38,878 nucleotides of DNA, from the NCBI GenBank assembly GCA_022821875.1, contig JAJECV010000145.1:1-38878 (forward strand), in the 5' to 3' direction. This DNA is from Rhodothermales bacterium. GTDB taxonomy: Bacteria > Bacteroidota > Rhodothermia > Rhodothermales > Bin80. The notes beneath the pieces are model-generated. The model was not told where the DNA came from. It saw only the letters and a list, made by a program, of their open reading frames with translations, and ran no database searches. This document shows, in pieces, positions 738 through 23,028 of the stretch (within the stretch, counting starts at the first letter, position 1; every line of letters starts with the position of its first letter). A program made the position numbers and the translations under genes.

Positions 738-3482
738 TTGATTCCAATTTCCGAAAATGATTTTACGGGATATCCATCATTCGTTCAACGACTCTTGCGG
801 ATCATGGTGACGATAACAGCAACGGATCGGCTGGCGCGGGCGCGTCATCAGGAATATGATTGGCAGCAGCAGGAAAAAGGGGATCGTACATGGATGACTG
901 CATCCGTCAAAACGCTCAATGCATGGCTGTCCGAGTTGTGGGAAGAAGGGATGTATGCGGCTTCCAATTCGACACTCCTTCGTCCGCTTCGCCCCGCCGA
1001 AGAGCAAATTATTTGGGAGAATATTCTGCGCTCAGATATCCGGAATCCCCCCCTTGATGTGTCTGCAACTGCTGAACTGGCGCGTACATCATGGAAACTT
1101 CTCTGTGATTGGCATCTGCCGTTGGAGGGACCGGAATGGGCTGTTTCCGAGGATGCGCGTGCCTTCCAGAAGTGGGCGGCGGAATTTCGTGGACGATGTA
1201 AAAAGAAGGGGTGGTTCTCGGCTTCCGAACTGTCCCGTCAGGTGATCCGCCTGATCCGTGAAGGGCAGGTGGAGGTCCCGGATCAAATGGAACTTGTCGG
1301 ATTTTTGGAGCAGACCCCCGCGGAGAAGCACTTCTTTGAAACGCTGCAAATGCACGGTACACGCATCCAGGAAACGCCTCCCCCGAATCACCAGGGGCAG
1401 GTGTTCCGTTTACCGGTCATTGATGTCCTCCAGGAGATGCGTGTTGCTGCAGGGTGGGCCCGCCAGATTATGGAGACCGATCCAGGGGCGGAGCACAAGT
1501 CCTTTCGTATTGGGGTTATTGTGCCAGGAATCGTCAATCTGCGCAGTCAGATTGAGCGGATATTTTCAGAGGTTTTTCATCCGCAATCAAGGCTTCAGCC
1601 GGATCATGATTCGAAACGTCTCTTCAACATTTCCCAGGGACTCCCGGCAGGGGACTATCCGATCATTCAATCGGCATTGCAGATTCTTTCAATAGATCCC
1701 CGAGAGATTCCTGTAGAAGAGGCCGGCCGTCTCCTTTTATCACCTTTTCTGCCAGCATTCCATGAGGAACGATCTTCACGTGCCCTTCTTGATGTAGATT
1801 TGCGTGGGCGGGGCGAGCAGTATGTGACCTTGAAAGATCTGATTTATCTGGCAACAAAGAGGAAGGACTGTCCGGTACTTGTTTCGATTCTTGTTGCATG
1901 GCAGGCGCAGTATTCAGATCTTCAGGGGAGGAAACTTCCTAGCGAATGGGCGAAGTCCTTCTCACGGCTATTGCAGTCAGGGAAATCAAACATACCGCCG
2001 GATAACGGGGATACGTCGGACCATGCCGTCAGCATTGGCTGGCCGGGATACTGGAAACAAACCAGTACGGAGTATCAGACCTACACCGTCTGGGAAGAAC
2101 TAATGTCGGCGCTGGTGGAGTTGGATGGGGTATGCGGGCGCATTACCTCCGGTAAAGCCGTCACCGTACTTCGCCGGATGGCCTCCGGTAAGGTGTTCCA
2201 GCCCGAACATGAACCTGCACCAGTACAGATATTAAGCGTGGGCGAAGCGGTTGGCATCTCCTTTGATCATCTCTGGGTGATGGGGATGCATGACGATATC
2301 TGGCCGCCTCCTTGTGCGCCAGCCCCGTTTGTACCGATCCTGCTGCAGCGCAGGAAAGGATTGTGGCGTTCCACGCCGGAGGGGATGCTGCTGCACGCCA
2401 GAGAACTTGCGGATCGACTATTGAAGAGTGCGCCATTGGTCATCGTCAGTCACCCCCTGCGGGAGGGGGATGCGGATCGGAGAATTAGTCCAATGTTTGC
2501 CGGACTGCCAGAAGTTTCTGAGGAGGATCTGGGCATTGAACCCCCTCAAACCCTCGGTGAGCAGGTTCAATCCTCCTCAAAGCTGGAAATCATCCGAGAT
2601 GACGAGGGACTACCCTGTGGCGAAGGGGAAACTCGCGGAGGGACCTATCTATTCAAGTTGCAGGCGGCATGCCCATTCCGGGCATTCGCAGAGCTGCGCC
2701 TTGGTGCGGTTCCACTTGCTAGTGCCCAGTCGGGGCTGCATGCAATGGACCGGGGCAGAATGATGCACCACATATTAGACATCCTCTGGCAGCAGTTGGG
2801 GACGCAGGCGGCATTGAACGTCCTGTCAGAGCAGGAGGAAGATCAACTTGTGCGGATAATTGTGGAGGAGCAGCTTGTCAACAGGGTACCATTTCGGCGG
2901 GTCCTTCAAAGCGAACGGTTTTTTGAAATTGAGCGGGATCGACTGGTGCGAATCACGCGGGAATGGCTTGCCCTTGAGCGGAACCGCCGCCCCTTTACGG
3001 TTCTTGAGCAGGAGGAGAGACAGCATGTCATTGCAGGGGGGCTTGAAATTCGTATTCAGGAGGATCGCGTGGATCAGCTTGAAAATGGGGAGCGGTTTAT
3101 CCTTGACTATAAGACGGGCAATTGCAGTCCTAATCATTGGAACGGGGAACGTCCGGATGACCCTCAGTTACCGATTTATGCGGCTGTCACGGATTCGCCG
3201 GTTGCGGGCATCGCCTTTGGCAGCCTGCGGAAAGGGAGTATGCGGATGAAAGGGGTCGCAAATCAGGATGTCGGCAATAGCGGGGTGAAAAACCCCCGGA
3301 AACCTCTGCCGGAACTTATTCATGACTGGCGGGAAATGCTCAATAAACTGGGACAGGATTACAAAGCGGGCCATGCACTGGTGGATCCCAAAAACCCGAT
3401 GCAGACATGTAGGTATTGCAGACTGACTTCGCTTTGTCGAGTCGGGAGTGATCCCGCAGCCCCACAGGATTCAGATGAGTAA
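738..3482 (+). CDS. AddB-like PD-(D/E)XK nuclease with Fe-S cluster cysteines
   Basis: 914 aa protein of the AddB-like 'probable DNA repair protein' type, the usual partner of an AddA-like helicase in processing double-strand breaks for recombination. The C-terminal third carries a RecB-type nuclease domain: conserved H677/H678, then D790-Y-K792 in the ILDYKTG motif. Cys645 before the nuclease core and Cys891-x2-Cys894-x5-Cys900 after it reproduce the four-cysteine arrangement that binds a 4Fe-4S cluster in AddB nucleases. The N-terminal half is the inactive helicase-like part; no Walker A motif was seen. The listed start is TTG; an ATG at 804 (reading MVTITATDRLARA) fits the usual N-terminus of the family and may be the true start. 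The 3' end overlaps the helicase gene by 8 bases (ATGAGTAA), so the two are one operon and probably translationally coupled. Confidence 0.85.
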   Translation: MIPISENDFTGYPSFVQRLLRIMVTITATDRLARARHQEYDWQQQEKGDRTWMTASVKTLNAWLSELWEEGMYAASNSTLLRPLRPAEEQIIWENILRSDIRNPPLDVSATAELARTSWKLLCDWHLPLEGPEWAVSEDARAFQKWAAEFRGRCKKKGWFSASELSRQVIRLIREGQVEVPDQMELVGFLEQTPAEKHFFETLQMHGTRIQETPPPNHQGQVFRLPVIDVLQEMRVAAGWARQIMETDPGAEHKSFRIGVIVPGIVNLRSQIERIFSEVFHPQSRLQPDHDSKRLFNISQGLPAGDYPIIQSALQILSIDPREIPVEEAGRLLLSPFLPAFHEERSSRALLDVDLRGRGEQYVTLKDLIYLATKRKDCPVLVSILVAWQAQYSDLQGRKLPSEWAKSFSRLLQSGKSNIPPDNGDTSDHAVSIGWPGYWKQTSTEYQTYTVWEELMSALVELDGVCGRITSGKAVTVLRRMASGKVFQPEHEPAPVQILSVGEAVGISFDHLWVMGMHDDIWPPPCAPAPFVPILLQRRKGLWRSTPEGMLLHARELADRLLKSAPLVIVSHPLREGDADRRISPMFAGLPEVSEEDLGIEPPQTLGEQVQSSSKLEIIRDDEGLPCGEGETRGGTYLFKLQAACPFRAFAELRLGAVPLASAQSGLHAMDRGRMMHHILDILWQQLGTQAALNVLSEQEEDQLVRIIVEEQLVNRVPFRRVLQSERFFEIERDRLVRITREWLALERNRRPFTVLEQEERQHVIAGGLEIRIQEDRVDQLENGERFILDYKTGNCSPNHWNGERPDDPQLPIYAAVTDSPVAGIAFGSLRKGSMRMKGVANQDVGNSGVKNPRKPLPELIHDWREMLNKLGQDYKAGHALVDPKNPMQTCRYCRLTSLCRVGSDPAAPQDSDE

Positions 3483-6400
3483 TCAGGTTCCAGACCACGC
3501 CCAGCGGCTCCAGGCATTGGACCCGAATGCCTCATTTATTGTGCAGGCCCCGGCGGGTTCAGGCAAGACCGAACTTCTGATCCAGCGATTCCTTGTTTTA
3601 TTAGCCCGGGTAAAACTCCCTGAGGAGATTGTTGCGATCACGTTTACACGCAAGGCGGCGGCCGAAATGCGCCACCGAATTATTCGTGCGCTCCAGAGAG
3701 CTGCAGGACAGGCACCGACTGTCCCGCACGAAAAGCATACATGGGATCTGGCTCGATTGGCCCTGGAACGCAACGACAGGCGGGCTTGGAATCTTCTGGA
3801 TAACCCGCTCCGGCTTCGGATTCAGACCATTGACTCCCTTTGTTCGCTACTGGTCCGAAGGATGCCCTGGGTTTCCCGCATGGGTGCACTGCTCAGGCCG
3901 GAAGAGGATGCACGCCATCTGCATCAAAAAGCTGCGCGCCGCACACTGGAGTTTTTATACTCGGTTCAGGCACATCCGAATGTGGTCCAGTCGATTGCAG
4001 TTTTACTGAGGCATCTGGATAACGATATGAGAAGGGTGGAGCAACTGCTGGGCGCAATGCTGGGCAGTCGGGATCAGTGGATCCGTCATGTGGATGGCAT
4101 GGAACATGAACCGGCGAAGACACGGGCGGCACTGGAGTCCGCGTTAACGCATATTGTTGAATGTACGCTGGAACGGATGGTCGCAGAGTTTCCAGAGAAT
4201 CACGCAGAAGATGTGGTTGAATTGGCCCGGTTTGCCGCTGAAAATCTACGTAATGAAGGAAAGGAAAGTGGAATTGGTGTCTGCGCAGACCTTCGGGGCC
4301 TCCCAGGCTCCTCGGTGGCGGATCTTCCCTGTTGGCTGGGGATTACAGAGTTGTTTCTGACGGGTGCAGGAACGCGTCGCAGGAGGTATTCAGTCCGTGA
4401 AGGATTCCCGGCCGGAGAGCGGGATGCGAAAGAGCGCATCCAAGGTCTCCATCTTGCAGAGGAAACGATCACACAGCTGAAGGAACTGAGACAGTTACCG
4501 TCATCCTCCTATGAAGAGAGCCAGTGGGAGGTTTTGGCCGCCCTGATGTATCTTCTGCCCGCGGCAGTTGCACAGCTTCGTAAAGTCTTTCAGGAGGATG
4601 GGAGTGTGGATTTTACAGAGATCGGGATCGCCGCACAGGAAGCCGCAAAGGCGCATATGCAGTCCGATAGCCAGGGGGGGATGCTCGATATCGCGACTCG
4701 ACATCTACTGGTTGATGAATTCCAGGATACGTCCCAGAGCCAGTACGAGTTGTTTGAACGGCTCATCCATGACTGGAAGGAGAGTGGCAGGACGCTGTTT
4801 CTGGTCGGTGATCCCATGCAGTCAATCTATGGTTTTCGGGAGGCAGATGTGAGCCTGTTCTCACGAACCCGAACAAGTGGAATCGGCCCCATTCGTCCCC
4901 GGTCACTTGTATTAGAGACAAATTTTCGCTCCAGTACAGAGATTGTAAGTTGGGTCAATGAAGCCTTAGGGGCGGCCTTTCCGGAAGTGGAGGACATGGT
5001 AACCGGTTCCGTCGTATACAGCCCTTCCACTGCATTCAGGACAGACCTCAAACAGAGCAAGGTTATGATCCATCCGTTCTTTTCCAATGATCTGGATGGG
5101 CAGGCCGAAAAGGTGGCACAGATCATTGCCGAAACCCAATCCCGACAGCCGGATGCGACCATTGCCGTGCTGGTTCAGGCACGCAGGCATTTACTGCAAA
5201 TCATTTCCGTGCTTCGTGAGCGCGGGATTGCGTTTCGGTCGGTAGATATTGATCCACTTGGCGAGCGTCCGGTGGTCCGTGATCTGATCGCATTGACGCA
5301 GGCGCTCCTTCATCCAGGAAACCGCATTGCATGGTTGTCGATCCTGCGAGCCCCGTGGTGCGGGCTTCAACTGGCCGATTTACAGAGATTGGTGGGCAAT
5401 GATCTAAAAACTCCCATGATGGATCTTCTTGCCAGACATGCGACAAGGATGTCCACGGATGGCAGGCAGCGGGTTGAGCGGATCCTTCCGACGCTTCAGG
5501 ATGCGTATGCGTTGACGGGCAGGCTTCCGGTGCGCCGGTGGGTTGAAGGCGTATGGCTGGCACTGGGCGGGCCTGCGTGTCTTGAAAAATCGGCACACCT
5601 AAATGATGCCATGGCATATCTGGATCTTCTGGAGGAGTCGGTAGAGGGGGTTGACTTGCGGGATGAGCGCAAATTCATGGAGGATGTGGAACGCCTGTTT
5701 GCCCCCTCGGATCTAGAAGCGGGTGCAGAACTGCAGTTACTCACTACCCATAAAGCCAAAGGACTTGAATTTGATACGGTTATACTGCCTGGTCTGGGGT
5801 ACCGCACCAGAGGAGATGCGCAGCGCCTGTTAATGTGGCGAGAGTATAATGATGGTGATCAGCCCCATTTACTGCTGGCACCAATCCGGGAGACGGGAGG
5901 CAAAGAAGACCTTGCCTATAATTACTTGTATAATGTTGAGCGAAAGCGACGAGATCACGAGGGAACCCGTCTTCTGTATGTGGCAGCCACAAGAGCCCGA
6001 AAGGATTTGCATCTAATCGGTCATATTTCTCAAAACGCTGAAGATCCAGAGTTAAAACCGCCGGATCCGCGAACCCTTTTGTCCAAAATCTGGAAAGTGG
6101 CAGAACCGGAATTTTCAAAGGCATGGGAGAACCATCCGCAGGAAGAGAATGCAGAAGATGTTCATGAGCAGGCAGGAGTCGGTGTCCCTTTACTTCGTTT
6201 GTCCACGCAGTGGAAACCCGTAGATCTGCAGGATGAGTTAATTTGGAAGGCGAACAAGGATCGGTCTGAAGACGAGAAAGAAGATCGTGAGCCGGTGTTT
6301 AAGTGGGTGGGGGATCTGCAGCGGCGGGTCGGGATTGTGATCCATCGGATGTTACAGGGGATGCGGTTTCCAGACCGGGTGGGTTTTAGCGAGAACATTC

Positions 6401-6840
6401 TTCGCAATGCACTTGCTCACGAGGGTTTGGATGGAGATAATCTGGAGGAGGCCCTGATCCAGGTGAAGCAGATCCTTAAGAGTGTGGTGGAGGATCGTCG
6501 GGGTCGCTGGGTTCTGTCAAAGCATGAAGAGGATGCATGGGAGTATGCACTCACTGCAGTGACTGGAGCGGGGGTGCGCCGATTTATTCTTGACCGAACG
6601 TTTGTCGAGGATGGCAGGCGCTGGATCGTTGATTACAAGACGAGTACGCACCTAGGGAGTGATGTAGACGATTTTTTAGATCAGGAAAAAAAGAGATATC
6701 AAGCCAAAATGGAACTCTATGCACGGGCGATGCGGGCCATAGATTCCAAGAGGCCGATTTTTCTGGGGTTGTATTTCCCTGCCCTGAAGGGGTGGCGGCA
6801 ATGGGAATACATTGATGCGAAGTCGGATGATCGGTCATGA
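3475..6840 (+). CDS. AddA-like UvrD/Rep helicase-nuclease
   Basis: 1121 aa superfamily 1A helicase with a C-terminal RecB-type nuclease. Motifs in order: Walker A GSGKT at residues 28-32, motif Ia ITFTRKAAAEM, motif II VDEFQDT (D414-E415), motif III VGDPMQSIYGFREA, motif IV ETNFRSS, motif V TTHKAKGLEFDTV, motif VI LYVAATRARKDL, and nuclease motif VDYKTS with D1053/K1055. The protein should unwind DNA from broken ends and cut it together with the AddB-like partner encoded just upstream. The reading frame is open from 3448, but the ATG at 3475 overlaps the upstream stop in the usual coupled arrangement and places the Walker A motif near residue 28, as is normal, so it was chosen. Length is typical of the family and every expected motif is present. 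Confidence 0.9.
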   Translation: MSNQVPDHAQRLQALDPNASFIVQAPAGSGKTELLIQRFLVLLARVKLPEEIVAITFTRKAAAEMRHRIIRALQRAAGQAPTVPHEKHTWDLARLALERNDRRAWNLLDNPLRLRIQTIDSLCSLLVRRMPWVSRMGALLRPEEDARHLHQKAARRTLEFLYSVQAHPNVVQSIAVLLRHLDNDMRRVEQLLGAMLGSRDQWIRHVDGMEHEPAKTRAALESALTHIVECTLERMVAEFPENHAEDVVELARFAAENLRNEGKESGIGVCADLRGLPGSSVADLPCWLGITELFLTGAGTRRRRYSVREGFPAGERDAKERIQGLHLAEETITQLKELRQLPSSSYEESQWEVLAALMYLLPAAVAQLRKVFQEDGSVDFTEIGIAAQEAAKAHMQSDSQGGMLDIATRHLLVDEFQDTSQSQYELFERLIHDWKESGRTLFLVGDPMQSIYGFREADVSLFSRTRTSGIGPIRPRSLVLETNFRSSTEIVSWVNEALGAAFPEVEDMVTGSVVYSPSTAFRTDLKQSKVMIHPFFSNDLDGQAEKVAQIIAETQSRQPDATIAVLVQARRHLLQIISVLRERGIAFRSVDIDPLGERPVVRDLIALTQALLHPGNRIAWLSILRAPWCGLQLADLQRLVGNDLKTPMMDLLARHATRMSTDGRQRVERILPTLQDAYALTGRLPVRRWVEGVWLALGGPACLEKSAHLNDAMAYLDLLEESVEGVDLRDERKFMEDVERLFAPSDLEAGAELQLLTTHKAKGLEFDTVILPGLGYRTRGDAQRLLMWREYNDGDQPHLLLAPIRETGGKEDLAYNYLYNVERKRRDHEGTRLLYVAATRARKDLHLIGHISQNAEDPELKPPDPRTLLSKIWKVAEPEFSKAWENHPQEENAEDVHEQAGVGVPLLRLSTQWKPVDLQDELIWKANKDRSEDEKEDREPVFKWVGDLQRRVGIVIHRMLQGMRFPDRVGFSENILRNALAHEGLDGDNLEEALIQVKQILKSVVEDRRGRWVLSKHEEDAWEYALTAVTGAGVRRFILDRTFVEDGRRWIVDYKTSTHLGSDVDDFLDQEKKRYQAKMELYARAMRAIDSKRPIFLGLYFPALKGWRQWEYIDAKSDDRS

Positions 6841-7072: not shown

Positions 7073-7993
7073 TTAGTGGAATAATTTTTCAAGCGCCTTG
7101 CGCTGCCTTGTATGCTTTTCGCGGTTCATGAATTTAAGTTTTTTCAAGTTAAAGGCTTTCCAGCGAACCGCAGGAAGGTCTTCCGCTTCGGGGAGCCCAA
7201 TCAATTGAAAATCCGGATCGCCGTTATGAAGGGAGAGAAGAAAGGTTGCAATTGAACCTGAAAGCCGTGATGCAATATCTGAATGCAGGCGCTGAGCGGT
7301 TTCAATAAGTGTTTCAATCGGGATGGTTTTCCCGGTCATTCCTTGAAAGCAGAGATTATACAATTCCTTCAGGATATAATTTGATGGGGACAGTATTTTG
7401 TGTATCGGTTGGTTTGAACTGGCAACATAGACCAGAAATACGCGGAACAATTCATCTGTGATCTCCCCGTTCTTGTAGAATGTCATCAGATCGAATAGAT
7501 CCCGCGGATATTTACGTCGGAGGGCAGTATAGATTTTGCCCGCGTACGTATCCGCAAAAGAGGCAACATTCATCCGTATTGCTCCAAATTGTCTGGTTGC
7601 GGCATTGGAGGTTACCATTGAATCCGGAGGCAGTACGGTGCCCCGTTTAACCATAGATGTTTCAATCTTTATCCATGTATCTCCCTGAAACACAATGATC
7701 CGGGGGCAGGCAATCCTTTTTTGCGGCAAGTACTGCGCATAGACCCCGGAATGATTATCCATGATTGCGTCAGCGATGCGGCGGAGGGCATCCTCAGTAT
7801 TCCTGACCGCAATCTTTCGCTCCTCAACCGGTAACCATATGAGTTCAATACTCGCAGGTAACCTTGGCATATCCTGATGGAATATATTGATGGCGGTGCC
7901 TCCCCTGAGGGCAAAGTCTGATTCTTTGGCGACTTTGGGCAGTACCCGCATCAGCAGGGTAGTTCTCTCAAGATAATCACGAGACACACTCAT
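7073..7993 (-). CDS. AbiEii-family nucleotidyltransferase paralogue with broken motif I (probably inactive)
   Basis: 306 aa, homologous along its length to the intact toxin gene at 8242-9165 (shared GGTAINxF, QDMPR, PRDLFD, LFRVxLVYVASS, LPAVRWK). AbiEii toxins are type IV toxins with a nucleotidyltransferase fold, in which motif I pairs a Gly-rich turn with a D-x-D metal site. In the intact paralogue this reads SVDIDLTW; here it reads PASIELIW, so the first Asp is Ser and the second is Glu. The Lys/Arg-Asp region (AGKIYTAL...PRDLFDL) remains. The frame is open from an ATG at 8026, but alignment with the paralogue and the ATG-over-antitoxin-stop pattern place the true start at 7993; the upstream codons lie in a relic of an antitoxin gene. 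The loss of motif I fits a toxin whose antitoxin has decayed. A retained regulatory role cannot be excluded. Confidence 0.8.
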   Translation of the reverse strand: MSVSRDYLERTTLLMRVLPKVAKESDFALRGGTAINIFHQDMPRLPASIELIWLPVEERKIAVRNTEDALRRIADAIMDNHSGVYAQYLPQKRIACPRIIVFQGDTWIKIETSMVKRGTVLPPDSMVTSNAATRQFGAIRMNVASFADTYAGKIYTALRRKYPRDLFDLMTFYKNGEITDELFRVFLVYVASSNQPIHKILSPSNYILKELYNLCFQGMTGKTIPIETLIETAQRLHSDIASRLSGSIATFLLSLHNGDPDFQLIGLPEAEDLPAVRWKAFNLKKLKFMNREKHTRQRKALEKLFH

Positions 7994-8085
7994 CACAGTT
8001 CGGTAGAGGATGTCGATAGACTCCATAGATAATCCGCACCAGCCCCATGATTTACATAATCGTAATCAGAGTTTAAGTTTTGTCC
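7977..8085 (-). pseudogene. Collapsed AbiEi antitoxin relic
   Basis: Read on the minus strand, 8085 to about 8043 gives GQNLNSDYDYVNHG, which aligns residue for residue with GIDSKSIHYYVGQG of the intact antitoxin at 10257-11102. After a small frameshift the next segment reads GLVRIIYGVYRHPLPN against GWLERIIRGVYLRPVP. This runs directly into CDECVS and a TGA at 7979-7977, corresponding to the antitoxin C-terminus (EDECEF). About 210 central codons are therefore deleted, and there is at least one frameshift. The homology weakens beyond about 8110. The relic's stop overlaps the ATG (7993) of the following toxin-like gene as in the intact module, which fixes that gene's start. Confidence 0.7.
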
Positions 8086-8241
8086 TTGCCAGATCCCATA
8101 CATGGAGGTCTCTCAGAGATGATGCATTTGGTTTCTACCAGAGTAGTTCCATCACTGAATTCGTTGGGCAGTGCCAACAATCCGTGGTTTTGACCAGATG
8201 GATAAGCGTTGATTCTATCTGGCGCATTGCATAAACTTGTC

Positions 8242-9165
8242 TTATTGAAACAACCGCCGGATTGCCTCCCGCTGCTGTGCATGTTTTTTTGGTTGCTCCT
8301 TTTTGAGCCTTCCCAGATTCAGCAGTTTCCAGCGAACCGCGGGCAAATTTACAGCATCGGGGAATCCAATCAATCCGAAGTCCGGCTCCACATCATGGAG
8401 TGAAATCAGGAAGGTTTCAACTTCATCTGTAAATCTTGATCGAATATCTTCATGTAGCCGAAGGCCAGTTTCCGTCAGCGCTTTTAGCGAAACATTTCGA
8501 AGATCCATCCCCCTGAATTCCTCGTTGTAATATTCTTCTGCGACCGGTCGAGTTGGTGATATCGATTCATGTATTGTTTTTCTTGAGGATGCGACATATA
8601 CAAGAAGTACTCGGAAGAGCTGATCGGATATCCCTTCGTTCTCATAAAGCACCATGACATCAAACAGGTCTCGCGGATGTTTACGTTCAAGTGCTGCGCA
8701 GATCTTTCCACCATATACATCTTCAAAGGATACCAACTTCATGGTCACCGAGTTGAACTGTTCATTTGCAGCATTCGTCGTCTTCATTAGACGAAATGGC
8801 CTCACGGTGCCTCGTGCTATAGTGGATGTCTCAATTTTTATATCCACCTCGTCGCGTATTACATAGATTTGAGGGAGTCCAGTTCTTTGATTTGGATATC
8901 GTTTTGCAATGATTCCAGCATGCCTGCCCAGAATGGCGCTCGTAATGCGGTTAAATGCATGATCAATGTTTTTTAGCGCCGGTGCACGGTCCGTGATTGG
9001 CAGCCATGTGAGATCAATATCCACGGAATATCTTGGCATATCCTGATAAAACATATTGATGGCAGTGCCCCCCTTGAGTGCAAGGTCTGATTCCTCTGCG
9101 ACGGTTGGTAGAACCTCCATCAGCAACTGAACCTGTTTTCTGTAGTAGTCAAAAGATGCAGTCAT
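8242..9165 (-). CDS. AbiEii-type toxin, nucleotidyltransferase (intact)
   Basis: 307 aa member of the AbiEii/AbiGii toxin family, the toxin of AbiE type IV toxin-antitoxin systems that act in phage abortive infection. Motif I is complete: GGTAINMF at residues 32-39 followed by SVDID with D49 and D51. Downstream, IKIETS, then GGKICAALERKHPRDLFDV provides the conserved Lys and R-D..D residues of the family. The ATG lies inside the 3' end of the antitoxin gene (17-base overlap), so the two are translationally coupled with the antitoxin made first. Related toxins transfer nucleotides, in some cases to tRNA; the target here cannot be read from sequence. A diverged, motif-I-defective paralogue follows at 7073-7993. 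Confidence 0.87.
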   Translation of the reverse strand: MTASFDYYRKQVQLLMEVLPTVAEESDLALKGGTAINMFYQDMPRYSVDIDLTWLPITDRAPALKNIDHAFNRITSAILGRHAGIIAKRYPNQRTGLPQIYVIRDEVDIKIETSTIARGTVRPFRLMKTTNAANEQFNSVTMKLVSFEDVYGGKICAALERKHPRDLFDVMVLYENEGISDQLFRVLLVYVASSRKTIHESISPTRPVAEEYYNEEFRGMDLRNVSLKALTETGLRLHEDIRSRFTDEVETFLISLHDVEPDFGLIGFPDAVNLPAVRWKLLNLGRLKKEQPKKHAQQREAIRRLFQ

Positions 9166-9994
9166 CTACGTAGGATGTATCCACGATAAAGTCTGGAAGG
9201 GAGATGTGATAGGTGGAATGAAATTTTCCGCCTGGTACAAGTATGCGTGGCCCACTACCAAAATCAATCTGTTTGGGGTCAAGAAATTTTAACCAGTCAA
9301 AATTTTTCCGTTCGGCATAAACGAAAAACAGCCGCCGAACCTTAACACTGCGGCAAACCTTTAAGAGTCTCATGAGTAGTTGTGGTCTTAAATCCATCAG
9401 ATTCTCAAAGATCAGGTCCACATATTCAAAACTTAGGTTGTCTGGTAATTGGGCAATCATCTCAAGGATAGCACGTTCTGGACAGGATGCCTTTATTGGC
9501 CAACTCCATATACCTGATGTCCAAATTTCTTTGTAGGTGACAGGATGACTGTTAACAATCCCAACCGGATTTTTGCCAAATAGAGTAGACTTATGCGATA
9601 CGATCTTGTCTGTTGTAGGAAGACGTTTTAGCCAAGAGGGTACGTCTCCGTACAAATGAATCCTCTGTCCCTCTCCTATCCACCCATAATGGGCATGGCC
9701 GGCATGGTTTAGAGCATTTCTGTGACCTAAGTGTACATTATACCTCATCAGTTGTTGGAGCGATACAAGGACGGTCGGCCAGGACAGCCTTGGATCATCA
9801 TGTGCATTTTGTGGCAGTGTGCGACGATACACGCCGTGTATGACCCGCTCAAGCCATCCCTGATGGACATAGCGGTGTATAGAACTTGAGTCCGCCCCCC
9901 TTGCTTTCAACCATGCCGTATCCACGATGAACCCTGGGGGGATGTCATCAACAAGATTTTTTAATCTTGGTGTTATTTGTCGCTTATTGTTCAT
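9149..9994 (-). CDS. AbiEi-type antitoxin of the intact module
   Basis: 281 aa. The N-terminal part (about residues 8-75) looks like the winged-helix AbiEi antitoxin domain: PPGFIVDTAWLKARG, then IHRYVHQGWLERVIHGVYRR. The rest is the AbiEi C-terminal domain, ending GPRILVPGGKFHSTYHISLP. Such antitoxins neutralise the toxin without a stable complex and repress their own promoter. The gene overlaps its toxin by 17 bases. It is a clear paralogue of the antitoxin at 10257-11102, of identical length and with the same C-terminal motif. About 40 bases upstream of its ATG is a 62-base segment shared with the leader of that paralogue, a good candidate for promoter plus autoregulatory operator. Confidence 0.85.
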   Translation of the reverse strand: MNNKRQITPRLKNLVDDIPPGFIVDTAWLKARGADSSSIHRYVHQGWLERVIHGVYRRTLPQNAHDDPRLSWPTVLVSLQQLMRYNVHLGHRNALNHAGHAHYGWIGEGQRIHLYGDVPSWLKRLPTTDKIVSHKSTLFGKNPVGIVNSHPVTYKEIWTSGIWSWPIKASCPERAILEMIAQLPDNLSFEYVDLIFENLMDLRPQLLMRLLKVCRSVKVRRLFFVYAERKNFDWLKFLDPKQIDFGSGPRILVPGGKFHSTYHISLPDFIVDTSYVDDCIF

Positions 9995-10034
9995 GGAATC
10001 TATTAGATTTTAAAATTTTTTATGAAAATCCATT

Positions 10035-10096
10035 AAAAAATTCCCTGAAAAGTGTCTTCTGTCCATTAAAATCATTTAAAATCAAAATTGTTCCAG
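10035..10096 (-). promoter_or_regulatory. Duplicated AbiE leader, copy next to the intact module
   Basis: AT-rich segment 40 bases upstream of the antitoxin ATG (9994). It aligns with 11143-11204 upstream of the other antitoxin over 62 bases with a one-base gap, sharing blocks such as TCCATTAA and AAAATCAAAAT on the plus strand, at the same distance from the start codon. On the coding strand TTTTAATGGA occurs twice about 31 bases apart around this segment. Promoter and operator function is inferred from conservation and position. Confidence 0.5.
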
Positions 10097-10168
10097 ATTC
10101 AAGTCAAGATGGTGATCGAGCTAAGACAAACGGCCAGTGGCCTGGCTCTACAGGTCGGATAGAGCATA

Positions 10169-10273
10169 TCAATGATCGTATGACTCTATGTGTATGCATG
10201 AACTCCCTCTGATGGTTGCGAGCGTCTCCAGCATCCGCTGAACTGGACTGAAATCTTTAGAATTCACATTCAT
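10169..10273 (-). pseudogene. Stub of an AbiEii toxin gene after the first antitoxin
   Basis: An ATG at 10273-10271 overlaps the antitoxin stop in exactly the register used by the intact module (GATGAMTGY... then stop). The 34-codon frame begins MNVNSKDFSPVQRMLETLA; its DFSPVQRMLETLATI segment aligns with DYYRKQVQLLMEVLPTV of the intact toxin. Homology stops before the GGT motif, and the leader of the next antitoxin gene begins shortly after. This is the 5' remnant of a toxin gene lost by deletion. Confidence 0.6.
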
Positions 10274-11102
10274 CTTCGTAGGAAGTATCTACGAAGAGCT
10301 CTGGAAGGGAGATATGATAAGTGGGGTGAAATTTTCCACCCGGAACCAATGCACGCGGTCCGCTGCCCAGATCAAATTGATCAACGTCCAGATCTTCGCG
10401 CCAGGGGTGTTGATATAGATCTGCAAAGACAAAGAACAGCCTGCGCACCTTCACACTGCGGCATGCTTTCAGGAGTGCGATGAGAAGGTGTGGACGCAGT
10501 CCATCCAGTCTTCCGAAAACATATTCGATAAACTCAAAATCGGGGTTACCTCCCAGTTCATACATCAATTCAAAGAGGGCACGTTCCCTGCATGACACTT
10601 TCATTGGCCACCCCCAAACCCGAACCGTCCAGGTGATTTCCCGTTGTGGGGAAGTACGGTCAACAATCCCCACCGGGTCATCCCCAAATAGTGTAGACTT
10701 ATGCAAGATGATTTTATCAATTGTAGGGAGGCGCTTCAGCCAGGATGGTGCATTGCCGTAGAAATGGATGCGCTGTGATATTCCCATCCATTCATACGGG
10801 ATGCGTCCGGCGTATTTGAGGGCACTGATTCCACCAAGGTGTACGCTATGTCCCATGAGTTGTTGAAGCGACACGAGTACTGCCTCCCAGGATAGCTTGC
10901 GGCGGTTCGGAAGATCTTTTGGCACTGGGCGAAGATAAACCCCGCGAATAATGCGCTCAAGCCATCCTTGACCGACATAGTAATGGATAGACTTTGAGTC
11001 AATCCCTCTTGCACTCAGCCACGCCGTATCTATGATGAATCCCGGCGGGAGGTCATTCAGGAGATATTTCAGTCTTGGTGTTCGGGTTTGTTTTTTATCC
11101 AT
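10257..11102 (-). CDS. AbiEi-type antitoxin paralogue, orphaned from its toxin
   Basis: 281 aa, the same length as the antitoxin at 9149-9994 and similar throughout: PPGFIIDTAWLSARG, YYVGQGWLERIIRGVYLR, VSLQQLMGHSVHLGG, GGKFHPTYHISLP. It has the N-terminal winged-helix domain and C-terminal AbiEi domain. It is the first gene of the island and has its own leader (11143-11204). Its 3' end is followed not by a complete toxin gene but by a short stub (10169-10273). The protein looks intact, so it may still repress the AbiE promoters or counter the toxin-like genes downstream. Whether it cross-protects against the intact toxin cannot be judged from sequence. Confidence 0.83.
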   Translation of the reverse strand: MDKKQTRTPRLKYLLNDLPPGFIIDTAWLSARGIDSKSIHYYVGQGWLERIIRGVYLRPVPKDLPNRRKLSWEAVLVSLQQLMGHSVHLGGISALKYAGRIPYEWMGISQRIHFYGNAPSWLKRLPTIDKIILHKSTLFGDDPVGIVDRTSPQREITWTVRVWGWPMKVSCRERALFELMYELGGNPDFEFIEYVFGRLDGLRPHLLIALLKACRSVKVRRLFFVFADLYQHPWREDLDVDQFDLGSGPRALVPGGKFHPTYHISLPELFVDTSYEDECEF

Positions 11103-11142
11103 CTAATTAGACGAAAACAAAAATAATTCTCGGCAATTTATT

Positions 11143-11204
11143 GGAAAATTCTCGAAAAAATGTCGTATATCCATTAATATAAGAAAAAATCAAAATAGTT
11201 TCAG
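11143..11204 (-). promoter_or_regulatory. Duplicated AbiE leader, copy in front of the first antitoxin
   Basis: 62-base AT-rich segment 40 bases upstream of the ATG at 11102, homologous to 10035-10096. On the coding strand it contains TTTTGATTTTTTCTTATATTAATGGA. Its retention in two copies at identical spacing suggests promoter plus autorepression site for AbiEi, by analogy with other AbiE systems. No perfect inverted repeat was recognised. Confidence 0.5.
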
Positions 11205-11541
11205 TTTCCGTGATACACTCCCTTCGTTTTAGCGACAACCCCGATGAACGTCAGTCGCTCCCCCGTGGCTGGAAATTATCTCTTTATGGTAGCCCCGGTT
11301 ACACTCAATACCCTGGATGCAGGAGGTGTCGGAGGGGGCAATCATGGAGCCTGTTGCGGTGAGATCAATAGGGTATGCATGCACGGAGCAATAATAGGTC
11401 GCAGAATCCGTGATATTGAATCTGTCTGGACTACCATGATCGGTGTGCTGAGACACTGTGGAATTTCTCTTTTGCGCAATCAGGGCTCAGTGATTGCGTC
11501 CTGCAGTGGGATCCACGGCCGGGAAGCTAACGCCTGAATGG
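11205..11541. other. Intergenic region, nothing recognised
   Basis: 337 bases between the AbiE leader and the 3' end of the DUF1501 gene. Open frames on both strands (for example 11244-11537 plus, 11229-11456 minus) have no recognisable motif, and their composition gives no support for coding. Base composition returns to that of the rest of the chromosome here, so the right border of the AT-rich AbiE island lies near 11205. Confidence 0.5.
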
Positions 11542-12996
11542 CTAGGTCAGAAGGTCATGGACAACATTCCCGAAAACATCCGTCAGGCGGTAGCGCCGTC
11601 CTTGATGCCGGAAGGTTAGACGCTCATGGTCAACCCCAAGAAGATGCAGAATGGTTGCCTGAAAATCATGTACATGCACGGGGTCCCGCGCAATATTGTA
11701 TCCGAGTTCGTCGGTCTCGCCGTAGGAGAACCCTTTCTTGATTCCGCCGCCCGTCATCCACAATGTAAAACAGCGCGGATGGTGATCCCGCCCAAACCCT
11801 TCTCTGGTCAAGCGTCCCTGTGAGTAATTGGTCCGCCCAAATTCGCCGCCCCAGATAACGAGCGTATCCTCCAGCAGTCCGCGCTGCTTCAGATCCAGAA
11901 CCAGTGCGGCCGAGGCCTGGTCCGTTTCTCTGGCCTGATTCTGGATCGCACCATAGAGGCCGCCATGGTGGTCCCATCCCTGGTGGTAGAGCTGGATAAA
12001 GCGAACTCCGCGCTCGGCCAGTCGCCGAGCCAGAAGGCAGTTGGCGGCAAAGGTGCCCGCCTCTCTGGCATCCTCCCCGTAGAGCGTAAAGGTTGAATCG
12101 GTCTCATCCTCAATGGCCGTAACTTCCGGTACGGAGGTCTGCATACGGAAGGCCATCTCGTACTGTGCGATCTTGGTTTCAATCTCAGGATCCTGGAGCT
12201 TCTCCAGTTGTAATTCCTGGAGTTCACGCAATGCACGCATATGCCGCTCACGATCCCCCTGGGTAATCCCGGGAGGATTGCTCAGATAAAGCACGGGGTC
12301 TTTTCCGGCACGGAACTGGACTCCCTGATGTCTTGAGGGCAAAAACCCGTTCCCCCATAGTCTGGAGTACAGCGGCTGTCCCATCTTGTCTTTGGTGACC
12401 AGTACCACGAACGAGGGTAAGTTGGCATTCTCGCTCCCCAGACCATAGCTCAGCCATGAACCCATTGAAGGCCGGCCGGGCTGCTGTGCACCGCTTTGCA
12501 GGAAGGTGATTGCAGGGTCATGATTGATCGCATCCGTATACATGGAATGAACAAAACAGAGTTCATCCACCACCTGAGAGGTGTAGGGCATCAGATCACT
12601 GATCCAGACACCGCTATCCCCGTGCTGTGCAAAGGAGAAAGGGGATTGCACCATCGGGAAGCTCTTCTGGCCCGCTGTCATGCCGGTCAGTCGCTGCATG
12701 CCCCGCACCGATGGTGGCAATTCCTCCCCATGCTGAGATTCCAGAGCAGGCTTATAGTCAAAGAGATCCAATTGTGAGGGTGCCCCGCTTTGCAGCAGGT
12801 AAATCACGCGCTTGACCCGTGCGGGAAAATGTGTAGTTCCAAGGATTCCCGGTACGGGATCCCCGCTGATCTGTGCACCGGTGGCCGATACTGGATTGAG
12901 AAGTGAAGTCAGTGCTGCCGCACCCAGCCCGAGCGTCGTTCGCGTCAGAAAATCCCGGCGGGTATACTGCTGATCATAATTGTGACATTCGTGCAT
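11542..12996 (-). CDS. DUF1501 domain protein with Tat signal
   Basis: 484 aa. The N-terminus carries a twin-arginine export signal (TRRDFLTRTTLGLGAAAL, about residues 12-29), so the protein is exported folded. The body is a DUF1501 domain, with characteristic stretches such as VIYLLQSGAPSQLDLFDYKP, SWLSYGLGSEN, IQLYHQGWDHH, IWGGEFGRT and GRDHHPRCFTLWMTGGG. DUF1501 has an alkaline-phosphatase/sulfatase-like fold and is usually encoded beside DUF1553/DUF1549 cytochrome-type proteins; no exact reaction is established. The upstream DUF1553-type gene ends only 8 bases before this ATG, so the two form an operon. These pairs are best known from Planctomycetes and Verrucomicrobia but also occur in Bacteroidota that use complex polysaccharides. 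Confidence 0.88.
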   Translation of the reverse strand: MHECHNYDQQYTRRDFLTRTTLGLGAAALTSLLNPVSATGAQISGDPVPGILGTTHFPARVKRVIYLLQSGAPSQLDLFDYKPALESQHGEELPPSVRGMQRLTGMTAGQKSFPMVQSPFSFAQHGDSGVWISDLMPYTSQVVDELCFVHSMYTDAINHDPAITFLQSGAQQPGRPSMGSWLSYGLGSENANLPSFVVLVTKDKMGQPLYSRLWGNGFLPSRHQGVQFRAGKDPVLYLSNPPGITQGDRERHMRALRELQELQLEKLQDPEIETKIAQYEMAFRMQTSVPEVTAIEDETDSTFTLYGEDAREAGTFAANCLLARRLAERGVRFIQLYHQGWDHHGGLYGAIQNQARETDQASAALVLDLKQRGLLEDTLVIWGGEFGRTNYSQGRLTREGFGRDHHPRCFTLWMTGGGIKKGFSYGETDELGYNIARDPVHVHDFQATILHLLGVDHERLTFRHQGRRYRLTDVFGNVVHDLLT

Positions 12997-18609: not shown

Positions 18610-20403
18610 ATGAGCGAGATCGTCTTTAAGGGCAAGGAGTTTGTCTACAATCACCATCTAGCAGTACCATTCAGACCACTTGAAATTCATCCTGACAAAG
18701 GAGTTGGAGAACCTAGTCTGACCGGGAATCTCATCATCCATGGCGATAATCTTCATGCATTAAAGGCACTTCTGCCCCAGTACGCCGGAAAGGTAGACTG
18801 TATCTACATTGATCCGCCCTATAATACCGGGCGTGAGAATTGGTGCTACAATGATAATGTAAATGCGCCCATGGTTCGTGAATGGCTGGATGCGAATCCT
18901 GTCGGCGTTGAAGATGGATTGCGACATGAGAAATGGTGTTGTATTATGTGGCCGCGTCTTAGGCTGTTGAACGAATTGCTTTCTGAAACCGGCGCGATTT
19001 TTGTTTCAATTGACGATCACGAACAGCATCGGCTGCGTGCGATGATGGATGAGATCTTTGGGGGTGATCAGTTCGTAAGCAATATCATCTGGCAAAAGAA
19101 ATACTCGCCGTCCAATGACGCAAAGGGATTTTCGGATGATCACGATTTTGTCGTCTGCTACGCCAGGCCCGGGTGGTCACGCCGCCTGCTGCCGCGGGGT
19201 GAAAAACAGAACAAGGCTTATGGTCACGATGACCAAGATGGGCGTGGCCCTTGGCAATCCGGAGATTTAAGCGTTAAGACCTATTCGGCGGCCTATGACT
19301 ATGAGATTGAGAATCCAGAGACCGGGGAAAGGCATCGTCCACCGGCCGGTAGATGTTGGGTAACGAGTAAAGAAACTGTGAAGGAGTGGATACGGCAAAA
19401 TCGCATTTACTTTCCTTCAGGCGGAAATAGTGTGCCGCGATTAAAACGTTATCTAAGCGATGTTCAGCAAGGCGTAGTTCCACGTACAGTCTGGCCCTAC
19501 ACAGAAGTTGGGCACACTGACGGAGCAAGGAAACTGCTCAAAGAAATTTTTCATGATCAGGAAGTCCTGTTTGATAATCCCAAGGCACTCGGACTCCTGG
19601 AGCGGATCATTAGCATCGGGGCGGACAAGAATGCACTTATCCTTGATTCTTTCGCAGGATCTGGAACGACGGGCCATGCAGTCCTGTCCCTAAATAAAAA
19701 GGATGGAGGAGACCGCAGGTTTATTCTCGTGGAATGCGAAGACTATGCGAACCGAACGACGGCTGAACGTATTCGAAGGGTGATTCATGGATATGACTAC
19801 ACCGGTGTACAGAAGACGGAGTTGATGCGGGAAAACATTACATGGACAAAGTTGAAGAATTCAAGTAAGCTGATTGACCGGGTTGCATCAATTGAAGATA
19901 TGCACCATCATGAATATGATCGTATCGGTAAGAAGGTGATTGGAAGGGAACTCATCGTGGTCGGTGAGAAAGAGATTGAGGGGCATAGTGAAGGATTGGG
20001 AGGCATGTTTACTTTTTGCAGGCTCGGTGATTCTTTGAGTGTAGAGAAACTGTTAACCGGAGAAATACTGCCCACCTTTGTGGGAATTGGTTCAGTATTG
20101 TTCCATATGGCTACGAACCAAGTTCTAGATGTAGGGGGAGTGCAGGAAAAAGAATTTTATCTTGGAACCACCGGTGATCAACATGTCTGGTTACTATACA
20201 GACCTGATCTGGATTGGCTGAAGTCCCCGGAAGCCGCACTCACACTTTCCCGCGCCAGAGGATTTGCATCTCACGACCAAGATAAACGACATCTAGTTTT
20301 TGCTCCTGCTAAATATGTGAGTCAGAAAATGTTGACAGAGCAAAAGATTCCGGTTGAATTCGTGCCGTTGCCATTTTCACTTTATGAAGTTCCGCAGAAT
20401 TGA
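18610..20403 (+). CDS. mod: Type III restriction-modification methyltransferase subunit (Mod)
   Basis: 597 aa N6-adenine DNA methyltransferase of the beta group. The catalytic motif DPPYNTG (D68-P-P-Y71) precedes the AdoMet-binding motif DSFAGSGTTG (from D346), the order that defines the group. The long variable segment between them (about residues 130-320) should contain the target-recognition domain. The Mod subunit recognises a short asymmetric site, methylates one strand, and forms the complex with Res for cleavage. Res starts 6 bases downstream, so the two form one operon. A decayed TnpB relic lies just upstream, consistent with acquisition by transfer. No simple repeat that would make the gene phase variable was seen in the frame. 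Confidence 0.92.
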   Translation: MSEIVFKGKEFVYNHHLAVPFRPLEIHPDKGVGEPSLTGNLIIHGDNLHALKALLPQYAGKVDCIYIDPPYNTGRENWCYNDNVNAPMVREWLDANPVGVEDGLRHEKWCCIMWPRLRLLNELLSETGAIFVSIDDHEQHRLRAMMDEIFGGDQFVSNIIWQKKYSPSNDAKGFSDDHDFVVCYARPGWSRRLLPRGEKQNKAYGHDDQDGRGPWQSGDLSVKTYSAAYDYEIENPETGERHRPPAGRCWVTSKETVKEWIRQNRIYFPSGGNSVPRLKRYLSDVQQGVVPRTVWPYTEVGHTDGARKLLKEIFHDQEVLFDNPKALGLLERIISIGADKNALILDSFAGSGTTGHAVLSLNKKDGGDRRFILVECEDYANRTTAERIRRVIHGYDYTGVQKTELMRENITWTKLKNSSKLIDRVASIEDMHHHEYDRIGKKVIGRELIVVGEKEIEGHSEGLGGMFTFCRLGDSLSVEKLLTGEILPTFVGIGSVLFHMATNQVLDVGGVQEKEFYLGTTGDQHVWLLYRPDLDWLKSPEAALTLSRARGFASHDQDKRHLVFAPAKYVSQKMLTEQKIPVEFVPLPFSLYEVPQN

Positions 20404-20409
20404 ATAAAA

Positions 20410-23028
20410 ATGAGATTTCGCCATTTGGAATATCAGGACCGGGTGCTTAATGTACTTGACACGCATCTCCGTTACCTGAAGGAGGAGAAGCAGGAGACGG
20501 ACAAGACTGCGAAAGTTGCGGCCGAAAATCCAGATGTGAGAATTTCTGTTCCGGATTTTACCCGGCAGGCTTGGCAGAGGATGGAAAAGGCGGGCAGCCT
20601 GCCCACTTCCCGCACACACATCCCCTATTCAGAGCGGAAAGATGGATGTGGGAATGCAGTTCCAAATGTGGTACTCAAGGTGCCAACAGGAGGTGGCAAG
20701 ACGTTTCTGGCTGTATCTGGTGTGTCCAAAATTATGGGCCAATATCTTTCATCGAATTCTGGATTTGTATTGTGGATCGTCCCCAATGAGGCGATTTATA
20801 CGCAGACGCTGAAGGCATTTAAGAATCGTCAGCATCCATATCGGCAAATGCTTGATCGCGCCGCCGCTGGACGCGTCAAAATCATGGAGAAGATGTCTCC
20901 TCTCAATGCACGGGATTTAGAAGGTAATCTTTGTGTTATGCTCCTGATGCTGCCATCCGCAAATCGAAGGAACAGGGAGTTATTGAAGATTTTTCGGGAT
21001 CGGGGAGATGTGCATGGATTTTTCCCGCCAGAAGGCGAAGAGCAGGCGCATAGACAACTTAAAGTTGAGATCCCAAATCTCGAAACCTACGGCGGGGATA
21101 TTTTTCTGCGAGTGAAAGACTCACTTGGGAATGCACTGCGGATCATTCGTCCCGTGGTGGTTGTGGACGAAGGGCATAGAGCAATTTCTGAACTTGCCTT
21201 TGAAACCTTATATGGGTTTAATCCGTGTTTTGTGCTTGAACTCACGGCAACCCCGAAGGACGTAAAGCCGCGTGGTGGGCGAAATCCAAGATCTGGGCGA
21301 TATGCCAATCTTTTGGTTGAGGTTACCGGGCGTGATCTGGATCGTGAAGATATGATCAAGATGCCGCTTACTCTCAATCCATGTCAAGGTAATGACTGGC
21401 GTAGCACGTTGAATGTGGCATTAACCAAACTCAAAGAACTTCAGGTTCATGCTGACCAATTTCAGGCAGATACGAACCGCTATATCCGACCAATTTTGCT
21501 TGTTCAGGTGGAACGCACAGGGAAAGATCAGCGGGAGACCAACTATGTTCACAGTAATGAAGTGAAAGAGTGGCTTCTGACAACCGGCTTTGATGAGGCC
21601 GAGATCGCGATCAAGACATCTGAGCAGAATGACCTGAGTAAGCCGGAGAATCAGGATCTGTTATCTCCGGCAAATCAGACTCGAATCATTATCACAAAGC
21701 AGGCCCTGCAAGAGGGATGGGACTGCCCCTTTGCCTATATCCTGTGTACCCTTGCTGCGAGTTCTAACCAGAATGCGTTAACACAACTGGTTGGCCGTAT
21801 CCTTCGCCAGCCGGATGCAGTGAAGACGGGAAACCAAGCACTGGATGAATGCTATGTGGTTACGCATTATGCGAAGACCGCCGAAGTCATCAGTGCGATC
21901 AAGAAGGGGTTGGAGAAAGATGGACTGGGGGATCTTTCCATTCAGGTAAGTCAGGATCATAATGACAGTTCAGAGACTGGACTGAGACGGATTGGTCGCC
22001 GTCCCAAGTTTCAATCCATGGAAATATTTTTGCCGAAGGTTATGGCAGTGGACAGAGGTGAGGTACGCGAACTTGACTATGAGGCAGATGTACTGGCGCA
22101 AATTAACTGGCATGGATATAGCCCTGATTCTATTGCAAGGGCCATTCCAAAGAATGCACAACCTGTTGATGCGCAACTGCAACGGATAAGTTTAACGGAT
22201 GATGAAGAACTAATTCGATCCGAGGGGATCACTTCAAGTTCTGGATATACGGCCCTTGATCCAGTTTATGCAGTTCAGAGAATTTTGGATATTGTCTGGA
22301 ATCCCTTCGTGGGACGTGAGATTATAGGCCGATTACTTGACGGTCTTCGCAGCCGGAATTTCGATAACGAAATGCTTGGGGGGATCTCCGCACTGATTAT
22401 TGAAGAATTGCGTCGGGAGTTAGAAAAGGAACGTGATCTGCAGGCAGAATCAATCTTTAAGAGGCGGGTTAGGGATGGGGAGATTCAGTTTCGTTTGCGC
22501 CTTGACGGGCATAACTGGAAAATGCCCCGAAAAATTCCCGCAAGCCTGTCAGGTGGTAAGAAGTTACTTGCCAACAAACATGGTGGGCTTCTGGAAAGGA
22601 GTCTGTTTGAACCGGTGTATGAGTCAGAATTCAACCAGGAGGAGAAAGATGTCGCCGTATATCTTGATGGAGAAACAGCATTAACATGGTGGCATCGCAA
22701 TGTTGCCCGCTCGGATTACGGACTTCAAGGGTGGAAGAAAGGCAAGGTGTATCCTGACTTTATTTTTGCTGTTCAGAGTGGAGGCCATGATTCACGCATT
22801 ACTGCTATCGAGACCAAAGGAGATCACCTTGACAACCTTGATACAGACTACAAACGGGAATTGCTGAATTTCCTGTCCAGCAGTTATGCCTGGGAAAATA
22901 GTACGCCCGCAGGCGAACTGGAGCTGGTTACAGACAGCGGGCAGACAATGCATTGCGAACTGGTCATGATGAGTGAATGGAAGACCCGGTTGCCATCTAT
23001 GCTGGGCAGTACTGCGAAGGAACCCTGA
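20410..23028 (+). CDS. res: Type III restriction endonuclease subunit (Res)
   Basis: 872 aa superfamily 2 translocase-endonuclease. Walker A is PTGGGKT (residues 92-98), motif II is DEGH (D253-H256), motif III is ELTATPKD, and late helicase motifs are QEGWDCPFAYILCTLA and QLVGRILRQP. At the C-terminus P782-D783 and E801-T-K803 (YPDF...AIETKGDHL) form the PD-(D/E)XK nuclease site. Together with Mod it cuts foreign DNA carrying two inversely oriented unmethylated sites after ATP-dependent communication along DNA. The length is in the usual range, all motifs are present and no frameshift was found, so the system looks functional. Confidence 0.92.
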   Translation: MRFRHLEYQDRVLNVLDTHLRYLKEEKQETDKTAKVAAENPDVRISVPDFTRQAWQRMEKAGSLPTSRTHIPYSERKDGCGNAVPNVVLKVPTGGGKTFLAVSGVSKIMGQYLSSNSGFVLWIVPNEAIYTQTLKAFKNRQHPYRQMLDRAAAGRVKIMEKMSPLNARDLEGNLCVMLLMLPSANRRNRELLKIFRDRGDVHGFFPPEGEEQAHRQLKVEIPNLETYGGDIFLRVKDSLGNALRIIRPVVVVDEGHRAISELAFETLYGFNPCFVLELTATPKDVKPRGGRNPRSGRYANLLVEVTGRDLDREDMIKMPLTLNPCQGNDWRSTLNVALTKLKELQVHADQFQADTNRYIRPILLVQVERTGKDQRETNYVHSNEVKEWLLTTGFDEAEIAIKTSEQNDLSKPENQDLLSPANQTRIIITKQALQEGWDCPFAYILCTLAASSNQNALTQLVGRILRQPDAVKTGNQALDECYVVTHYAKTAEVISAIKKGLEKDGLGDLSIQVSQDHNDSSETGLRRIGRRPKFQSMEIFLPKVMAVDRGEVRELDYEADVLAQINWHGYSPDSIARAIPKNAQPVDAQLQRISLTDDEELIRSEGITSSSGYTALDPVYAVQRILDIVWNPFVGREIIGRLLDGLRSRNFDNEMLGGISALIIEELRRELEKERDLQAESIFKRRVRDGEIQFRLRLDGHNWKMPRKIPASLSGGKKLLANKHGGLLERSLFEPVYESEFNQEEKDVAVYLDGETALTWWHRNVARSDYGLQGWKKGKVYPDFIFAVQSGGHDSRITAIETKGDHLDNLDTDYKRELLNFLSSSYAWENSTPAGELELVTDSGQTMHCELVMMSEWKTRLPSMLGSTAKEP

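Follow-up and report, generated by a model that had tools for sequence, protein, structure and literature searches.

What becomes of spare toxin-antitoxin (TA) modules is the question raised by an AbiE island in a 38,878-nt stretch of DNA (hereafter the window) from a Rhodothermales bacterium (contig JAJECV010000145.1 of assembly GCA_022821875.1). The island occupies the minus strand, with a UvrD/AddA-like helicase gene (3448–6840) on one side and a DUF1501 gene (11542–12996) on the other, and holds four full-length AbiE genes, here called A1, A2, T2 and T3, together with a toxin stub and an antitoxin relic. With moderate confidence, we read it as an AbiE locus that grew to at least three overlapping antitoxin-toxin (A-T) modules within the genus and was then trimmed by internal deletions, with A1 and T3 retained and T3 acting by binding. 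In what follows, G000 is the genome of the window and other G-numbers denote other surveyed genomes. The genes and remains, in the order in which they are read on the minus strand, are:

10257–11102, minus strand: A1, a full-length AbiEi antitoxin/repressor without a toxin of its own (Pfam, PADLOC)
10159–10273, minus strand: toxin stub, AbiEii residues 1–39 with one frameshift, from an ATG overlapping the A1 stop by 17 nt (anchored frameshift-aware test)
9149–9994, minus strand: A2, AbiEi antitoxin of the complete pair, with a middle part (~9300–9800) for which G000 and G392 carry divergent alleles
8242–9165, minus strand: T2, AbiEii nucleotidyltransferase toxin by its motifs, of which the set is complete; 17-nt overlap with A2
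8089–8241, minus strand: T2-T3 spacer, resembling the spacer that precedes the intact second module of G278
7977–8088, minus strand: collapsed antitoxin relic, in which residues ~32–62 (one frameshift) run on into an antitoxin-like C-terminus (DECVS, then stop); 17-nt overlap with the T3 start
7073–8026, minus strand: T3, an AbiEii paralogue of full length that lacks the aspartates of motif II and is apparently a conserved pseudo-toxin; the homologous start is ATG 7993
7844–7852, minus strand: motif II of T3, Ser-Ile-Glu replacing Asp-hydrophobic-Asp (motif comparison)

A1 and A2 matched Pfam AbiEi_3 (1.2e-29 and 3e-35) and AbiEi_3_N (3.5e-20 and 3.9e-19), while T2 and T3 matched AbiEii (1.6e-34 and 6.7e-23), all above the Pfam cut-offs; A2 also exceeded the cut-off of AbiEi_4. 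One PADLOC AbiEi model takes both A1 and A2 (the latter at 3.7e-74), and one AbiEii model takes both T2 and T3. Within the window, the antitoxins are 59% identical to each other and T2 and T3 50%. The A2-T2 genes fit an AbiE type IV TA pair, with an AbiEi winged helix-turn-helix (wHTH) and C-terminal domain, AbiEii motifs I–IV, and an overlapping A-T order (9149–9165). The AbiEi domains of A1 are intact, but directly downstream there is only a toxin stub of ~39 codons and no cognate toxin. T3 is an AbiEii by descent, as judged by Pfam and by its place within the genus toxin clade; lacking the motif II needed for toxicity, it is not classed as an AbiEii toxin. The locus is a variant within the known AbiE/MenAT kind of TA system and makes no new class.

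The first-pass annotation, made from the sequence of the window, had proposed the minus-strand order of an antitoxin with a toxin stub, an intact pair, and an antitoxin relic with a motif-defective toxin paralogue, each junction keeping the same ATG-over-stop overlap. This order is borne out by alignment. The antitoxin relic lies within the 215 bases separating T2 from T3. In a frameshift-aware comparison against a profile of genus antitoxins, the DNA at 8088–7998 matched positions 32–62 with one frameshift (QGQNLNSDYDYVNHG/GLVRIIYGVYRHPLPN), at a score of 60.1 against 23.1±3.3 in dinucleotide shuffles (maximum 38.5, 0/300). Past position 62, the relic skips straight to its antitoxin-like C-terminus, the stop of which overlaps the homologous T3 start. 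A nucleotide-level test was also significant (0/300 shuffles); the first such test, made against the window's own antitoxins only, had been negative because the relic is more like other members of the genus. The first 175 bases of the spacer between T2 and T3 resemble the spacer of the second G278 antitoxin (50 vs 28.0±4.9, 0/500 shuffles).

For the toxin stub, the comparison was anchored at the ATG overlapping the A1 stop, with the 17 overlap bases fixed, and gave 30.0 against 10.2±2.6 (maximum 22.4, 0/400 shuffles). The stub was marginal in the unanchored frameshift-aware test (5/300 shuffles), and was not detected by a plain nucleotide or hidden Markov model search. Judged by the anchored alignment, it is real, short as it is. 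A lack of significant alignment for the two relics, which had been named in advance as an outcome that would speak against the proposal, was thus not what we observed. The overlap is identical, at exactly 17 nt, at all three junctions in the window and at both junctions in G278. Taken alone, its occurrence at A1 is weak evidence, since conservation of the antitoxin C-terminus (D-[DE]-C) in part dictates the ATG at this site.

This AbiE subfamily is represented, by genes or by remains, in 8 of the 10 genus genomes. G392 carries A1-A2-T2-T3 in the same order and at the same site, in surrounding DNA that is 93% identical to that of G000; shared in this way by another species, the array is not an assembly artefact. 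An intact A-T-A-T array is present in G278, with its first toxin 66% identical to T2 and its second 59% identical to T3. The arrangement is A-A-T in G270 and G395, a single A-T pair in G396, an antitoxin followed by a broken toxin in G207, and parts of both genes in G167. No toxin stub was found at the equivalent positions behind the upstream antitoxins of G270 and G395, so these A-A-T arrays have a different history. The survey covered 136 loci, the majority of which lie outside the genus; 124 of the 136 are simple A-T pairs, and no multi-copy array was found beyond the genus.

The nine genus toxins group as one clade in a 77-toxin tree (SH-aLRT, the Shimodaira-Hasegawa-like approximate likelihood ratio test, 99), within which T3, its G392 counterpart and the second toxin of G278 are nested as a clade of their own (SH-aLRT 99). 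For the toxins, this rules out arrival from distant AbiE clades, the other outcome named in advance; resolution in the antitoxin tree is poor. By the approximately unbiased (AU) test, the two G278 antitoxins are not sisters (p=0.0001) and a sister relationship of A1 and A2 is borderline (p=0.0496), so that the two are probably not sisters either; a simple, recent triplication in place is thus too simple an account. The test did not single out the intact-antitoxin lineage to which A1 belongs (A1 with G278_Ab, p=0.15; A1 with G396_A, p=0.10). The original A-T-A-T-A-T array that the first-pass annotation envisaged holds only in part. An origin of the island from repeated A-T modules is supported by the three antitoxin 3′-ends, the stub, the relic and the G278 array, and the intact A-T-A-T of G278, with a relative of T3 as its second toxin, supports a multi-module ancestor; plain triplication in place is what the AU results speak against.

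T2 has a complete set of motifs (GGTAIN, R, S, DID, KIE, K/R, RDLFD), while T3 retains motif I, the motif II arginine, KIE, the motif III K/R and RDLFD but not the aspartate pair; the first-pass annotation had called it motif-defective. Motif II reads Asp-hydrophobic-Asp in 130 of 132 surveyed AbiEii proteins. The two exceptions are both of the T3 lineage, namely the T3 of G392 (SIE, as in the window) and the second toxin of G278 (NID); the latter, G278_Tb, is the sister of T3 and has lost the KIE acid as well as the first aspartate. In Streptococcus agalactiae AbiEii, D67A, D69A, D67E and D69E each abolish toxicity (PMC3985639), as does D82A in MenT3 (PMC7205606). MenT3 is also phosphorylated at S78 (PMC11375011), which, by position relative to the Asp pair, aligns with S47 of T2 and with a proline in T3. 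With this proline and no Asp pair, both catalysis and MenT3-type phosphorylation control should fail in T3. The AlphaFold model of T3 has a predicted local distance difference test (pLDDT) score of 94.1 and a predicted template modelling (pTM) score of 0.91, with MenT4 and MenT3 as the nearest solved folds; that of T2 has a pLDDT of 92.8 and MenT4 as best PDB match. T3 is thus modelled as an intact fold that is predicted from its motif to be non-catalytic.

The catalytic loss predates the split of the G000 and G392 species, and because both copies of T3 carry SIE, all differences between them postdate the loss of the motif. They amount to 19.5 nonsynonymous and 24.5 synonymous changes, against 29.7±3.0 nonsynonymous changes in neutral simulations (P=0.0007), and the frame is unbroken, whereas 71% of the simulations gained a stop. 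A1 shows 9.5 nonsynonymous changes against a neutral 24.2±2.7, and its omega (the nonsynonymous to synonymous rate ratio) of 0.10 between G000 and G392 is the lowest of the four genes. In a comparison with G278, the N-terminal 125 residues of T3 have an omega 3.2 times that of the same part of T2 (95% confidence interval 1.5–7.5), and the ratio beyond residue 125 is 0.86 (0.41–1.68), that is, relaxation is confined to the N-terminal catalytic region. The C-terminal part has an omega of 0.08 between G000 and G392. The purifying selection on A1 and T3 suggests that both leftovers do something rather than rot. The phrase "different states of decay", used of the three modules in the first-pass annotation, fits the stub and the relic but not these two genes, which seem to have been kept as parts of the locus, A1 as an additional repressor/antitoxin and T3 as a non-catalytic pseudo-toxin, beside a single complete AbiE pair.

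The regions ahead of the two antitoxin genes, and the spacer between them, contain the following:

11103–11208, minus strand: promoter block of A1, homologous to the A2 block (shuffle test), with a promoter-like CTGAAA-17-TATATT at 11204–11176
10133–10146, minus strand: weak terminator-like hairpin, GCCAGGCCACTGGC then CGTTTGTCTT (1 found vs 4.0 expected by chance)
9995–10100, minus strand: promoter block of A2, homologous to the A1 block, with two 19-nt imperfect direct repeats 23 nt apart

The two promoter blocks (~106 bases each) align at 53 against 19.9±3.1 (0/500 shuffles), and the A1 block forms a single 954-bp high-scoring segment pair with the A2 block. Their homology indicates that the duplicated unit took in the promoter. 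A promoter block common to A1 and A2 is compatible with the regulatory network that the first-pass annotation had suggested as possible, and proves nothing.

The stub spacer between A1 and A2 (10101–10256) differs between G000 and G392 at 2 of 156 positions, against a synonymous divergence (dS) of 0.15 in A1, and a 34-residue frame in the stub has a single silent change between the two. This spacer may hold a conserved regulatory element. An Rfam search of the region gave nothing credible, and one sub-threshold snoRNA match was taken as chance.

We suggest the following course of events. Within the genus, overlapping A-T modules would have multiplied to three or more, and internal deletions would then have produced a complete A2-T2 module, an A1 that outlived its toxin, and a T3 deprived of its antitoxin and of its catalytic aspartates. 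AbiEi is known to repress its own promoter and to neutralise the toxin through its C-terminal domain (PMC3985639, PMC7319586), and MenA3 works by inducing phosphorylation at the toxin active site (PMC11375011). It is from such AbiEi/MenA biology that we infer the regulatory functions of A1 and T3. A2 would repress the A2-T2(-T3) operon and neutralise T2, and A1, expressed from a near-copy of the A2 promoter, would give this operon a further repressor and a reserve antitoxin. Like MenT3 and MenT4, T2 is probably a nucleotidyltransferase acting on tRNA, and would be freed once antitoxin control breaks down, as it might in phage infection; MenT toxins modify the 3′-ends of tRNAs (PMC10435456), and AbiE has been cited among the most abundant phage-defence systems (PMC11375011). 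The folded but non-catalytic T3 would act through binding, most likely by engaging the antitoxins and so setting how much A1 and A2 is free for T2 and the promoters; alternatively, it might compete with T2 for the target of T2. That T3 is a pseudo-toxin with a new binding job, be it antitoxin titration or target shielding, in a four-protein AbiE system of two repressors/antitoxins, one toxin and one modulator, is put forward tentatively.

Several points weigh against this proposal. The promoter blocks yielded imperfect direct repeats and no inverted-repeat operator of the classical AbiEi type; of the two, only the A1 block has a -35/-10-like site. The homologous start of T3 lies 248 nt past the T2 stop. 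The selection tests on T3 use two closely related genomes (44 differences) and one distant relative, all of them fragmented assemblies; the N-terminal boundary at residue 125 was set after the motifs had been inspected, and slow decay would also give the accelerated change in this part of T3.

Slow decay is at the core of the first of four alternatives, taken here in order of falling likelihood. The three modules may have been duplicated and become redundant, such that only A2-T2 works and A1 and T3 are leftovers being lost. The stub and the relic do show deletion at work, antitoxins accompany broken toxins in G207 and G167, and the T3 catalytic region is relaxed. A1 and T3 are nevertheless open, full length and under purifying selection after orphaning or inactivation, down to the low omega of the T3 C-terminal part, and we regard plain decay as rather unlikely. 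It also seems unlikely that the locus serves anti-addiction or immunity, with A1 neutralising AbiEii toxins encoded elsewhere (on plasmids, in phages or in rival arrays) and T3 drawing off antitoxins, or phage factors aimed at T2, as a decoy. Orphan upstream antitoxins do occur in G000/G392, G270 and G395 with differing histories (the G270 pair are sisters, and G270 and G395 lack a stub), the location of related AbiE modules varies from species to species, which makes encounters with related toxins likely, and the middle of A2 differs as if exchanged between lineages. The retention of a dead toxin is not explained by this model itself.

Glutamate can bind metal in related folds. T3 could on that ground have kept nucleotidyltransferase activity by way of an atypical metal site, with Ser/Glu standing for Asp/Asp, all the more so as its other motifs are retained. 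We consider this very improbable, because either aspartate-to-glutamate exchange kills S. agalactiae AbiEii (PMC3985639), D82A kills MenT3 (PMC7205606), and the sister G278_Tb also lacks the first aspartate together with the KIE acid. Least likely, and scarcely credible, is that A1-T3 was originally one pair into which A2-T2 was inserted. The G000 and G392 copies of A1 and T3 are closer to each other (97% and 94% identity) than those of A2 and T2 (81% and 89%), but the excess divergence is limited to segments inside A2 and T2. Moreover, A1 has its own toxin stub, T3 has its own antitoxin relic and C-terminus, and in G278 the T2-like module precedes the T3-like one just as here, both having an antitoxin of their own. 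Nested insertion was rejected, being largely refuted by the two independent relics.

The expanded and trimmed array that we favour departs from known systems in composition rather than in kind. It shares with AbiEi/AbiEii of S. agalactiae (type IV TA; PMC3985639) the Pfam and PADLOC families, the overlapping A-T order, motifs I–IV in T2, and the wHTH and C-terminal antitoxin domain in A1 and A2. Known AbiE loci are bicistronic, whereas the window has four full genes from at least three modules, a toxinless antitoxin and a toxin without motif II; also unlike known AbiE, no inverted-repeat operator was identified there. MenAT3 and MenAT4 of Mycobacterium tuberculosis (TglT-TakA; PMC7205606, PMC11375011, PMC10435456) supply the nearest solved folds of T2 and T3 (6y56, 6j7n, 6y5u), at a sequence identity of ~11–17%. 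As in MenT3, T2 keeps the serine two residues ahead of the first aspartate. HipBST (PMC10627512) offers a working analogy only, in that a toxin-derived protein is kept as a non-toxic third partner (HipS, which corresponds to N-subdomain 1 of HipA). It belongs to an unrelated kinase family, HipS is a split-off domain whereas T3 is a full-length, catalytically impaired paralogue, and a neutralising role of T3 is only putative. Orphan antitoxins are known from TA surveys, such as AbiEi-like ones in Mycoplasma mycoides (PMC8562856), and like A1 they lack a toxin of their own. Unlike these, A1 immediately precedes a complete paralogous pair and has nearly the same promoter as that pair, in a layout of upstream antitoxins that recurs in one genus.

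AbiE is usually treated as a two-gene module. In this genus, modules have been multiplied, stripped and partly kept, as A-T-A-T, A-A-T, A-A-T-T, and antitoxin with broken toxin. With an intact relative, the stripped form and both relics at hand, the fate of spare TA modules becomes testable at this locus. If T3 were a functional pseudo-enzyme, toxin paralogues could be recruited to regulate the family from which they stem, and tools for annotation that score each AbiEii gene as a toxin would overcount.

Variation and further AbiE remains were also noted. Between G000 and G392, segments of low identity occur in A2 (9300–9800, 51–78%) and T2 (8500–8600, 74%) amid DNA that is 93–99% identical, and look as if antitoxin and toxin alleles had been swapped by recombination. 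The closest match to the centre of A2 (residues 128–215) is G278_Aa for the G000 copy and G207_A for that of G392. The toxin fragments behind the antitoxins of G207 and G167 contain stops (L057:7200-8330; L058:8540-8660) and represent further cases of an antitoxin that outlasts its toxin. A second, broken toxin C-terminus, with ~75% DNA identity to T3, is present at another site of both G000 (L063:9541-9791; G000:C93:21541-21791) and G392 (L064:7663-7922; G392:C38). G000 has three more AbiEii genes of more distant subfamilies (L062, C93:4000-6354; L065, C58), two of which are adjacent on C93.

A common site for the arrays across species was tested and rejected, as the flanking genes differ in all comparisons except G000 vs G392. 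The 3′ side of the conserved DUF1501 gene (window 11542; L173-L179) bears different cargo in each species of the genus and is possibly an insertion hotspot. About 7.5 kb from the AbiE island lies a type III restriction-modification pair (18610–23028), comprising a methyltransferase gene (18610–20403) and a restriction subunit gene (20410–23028).

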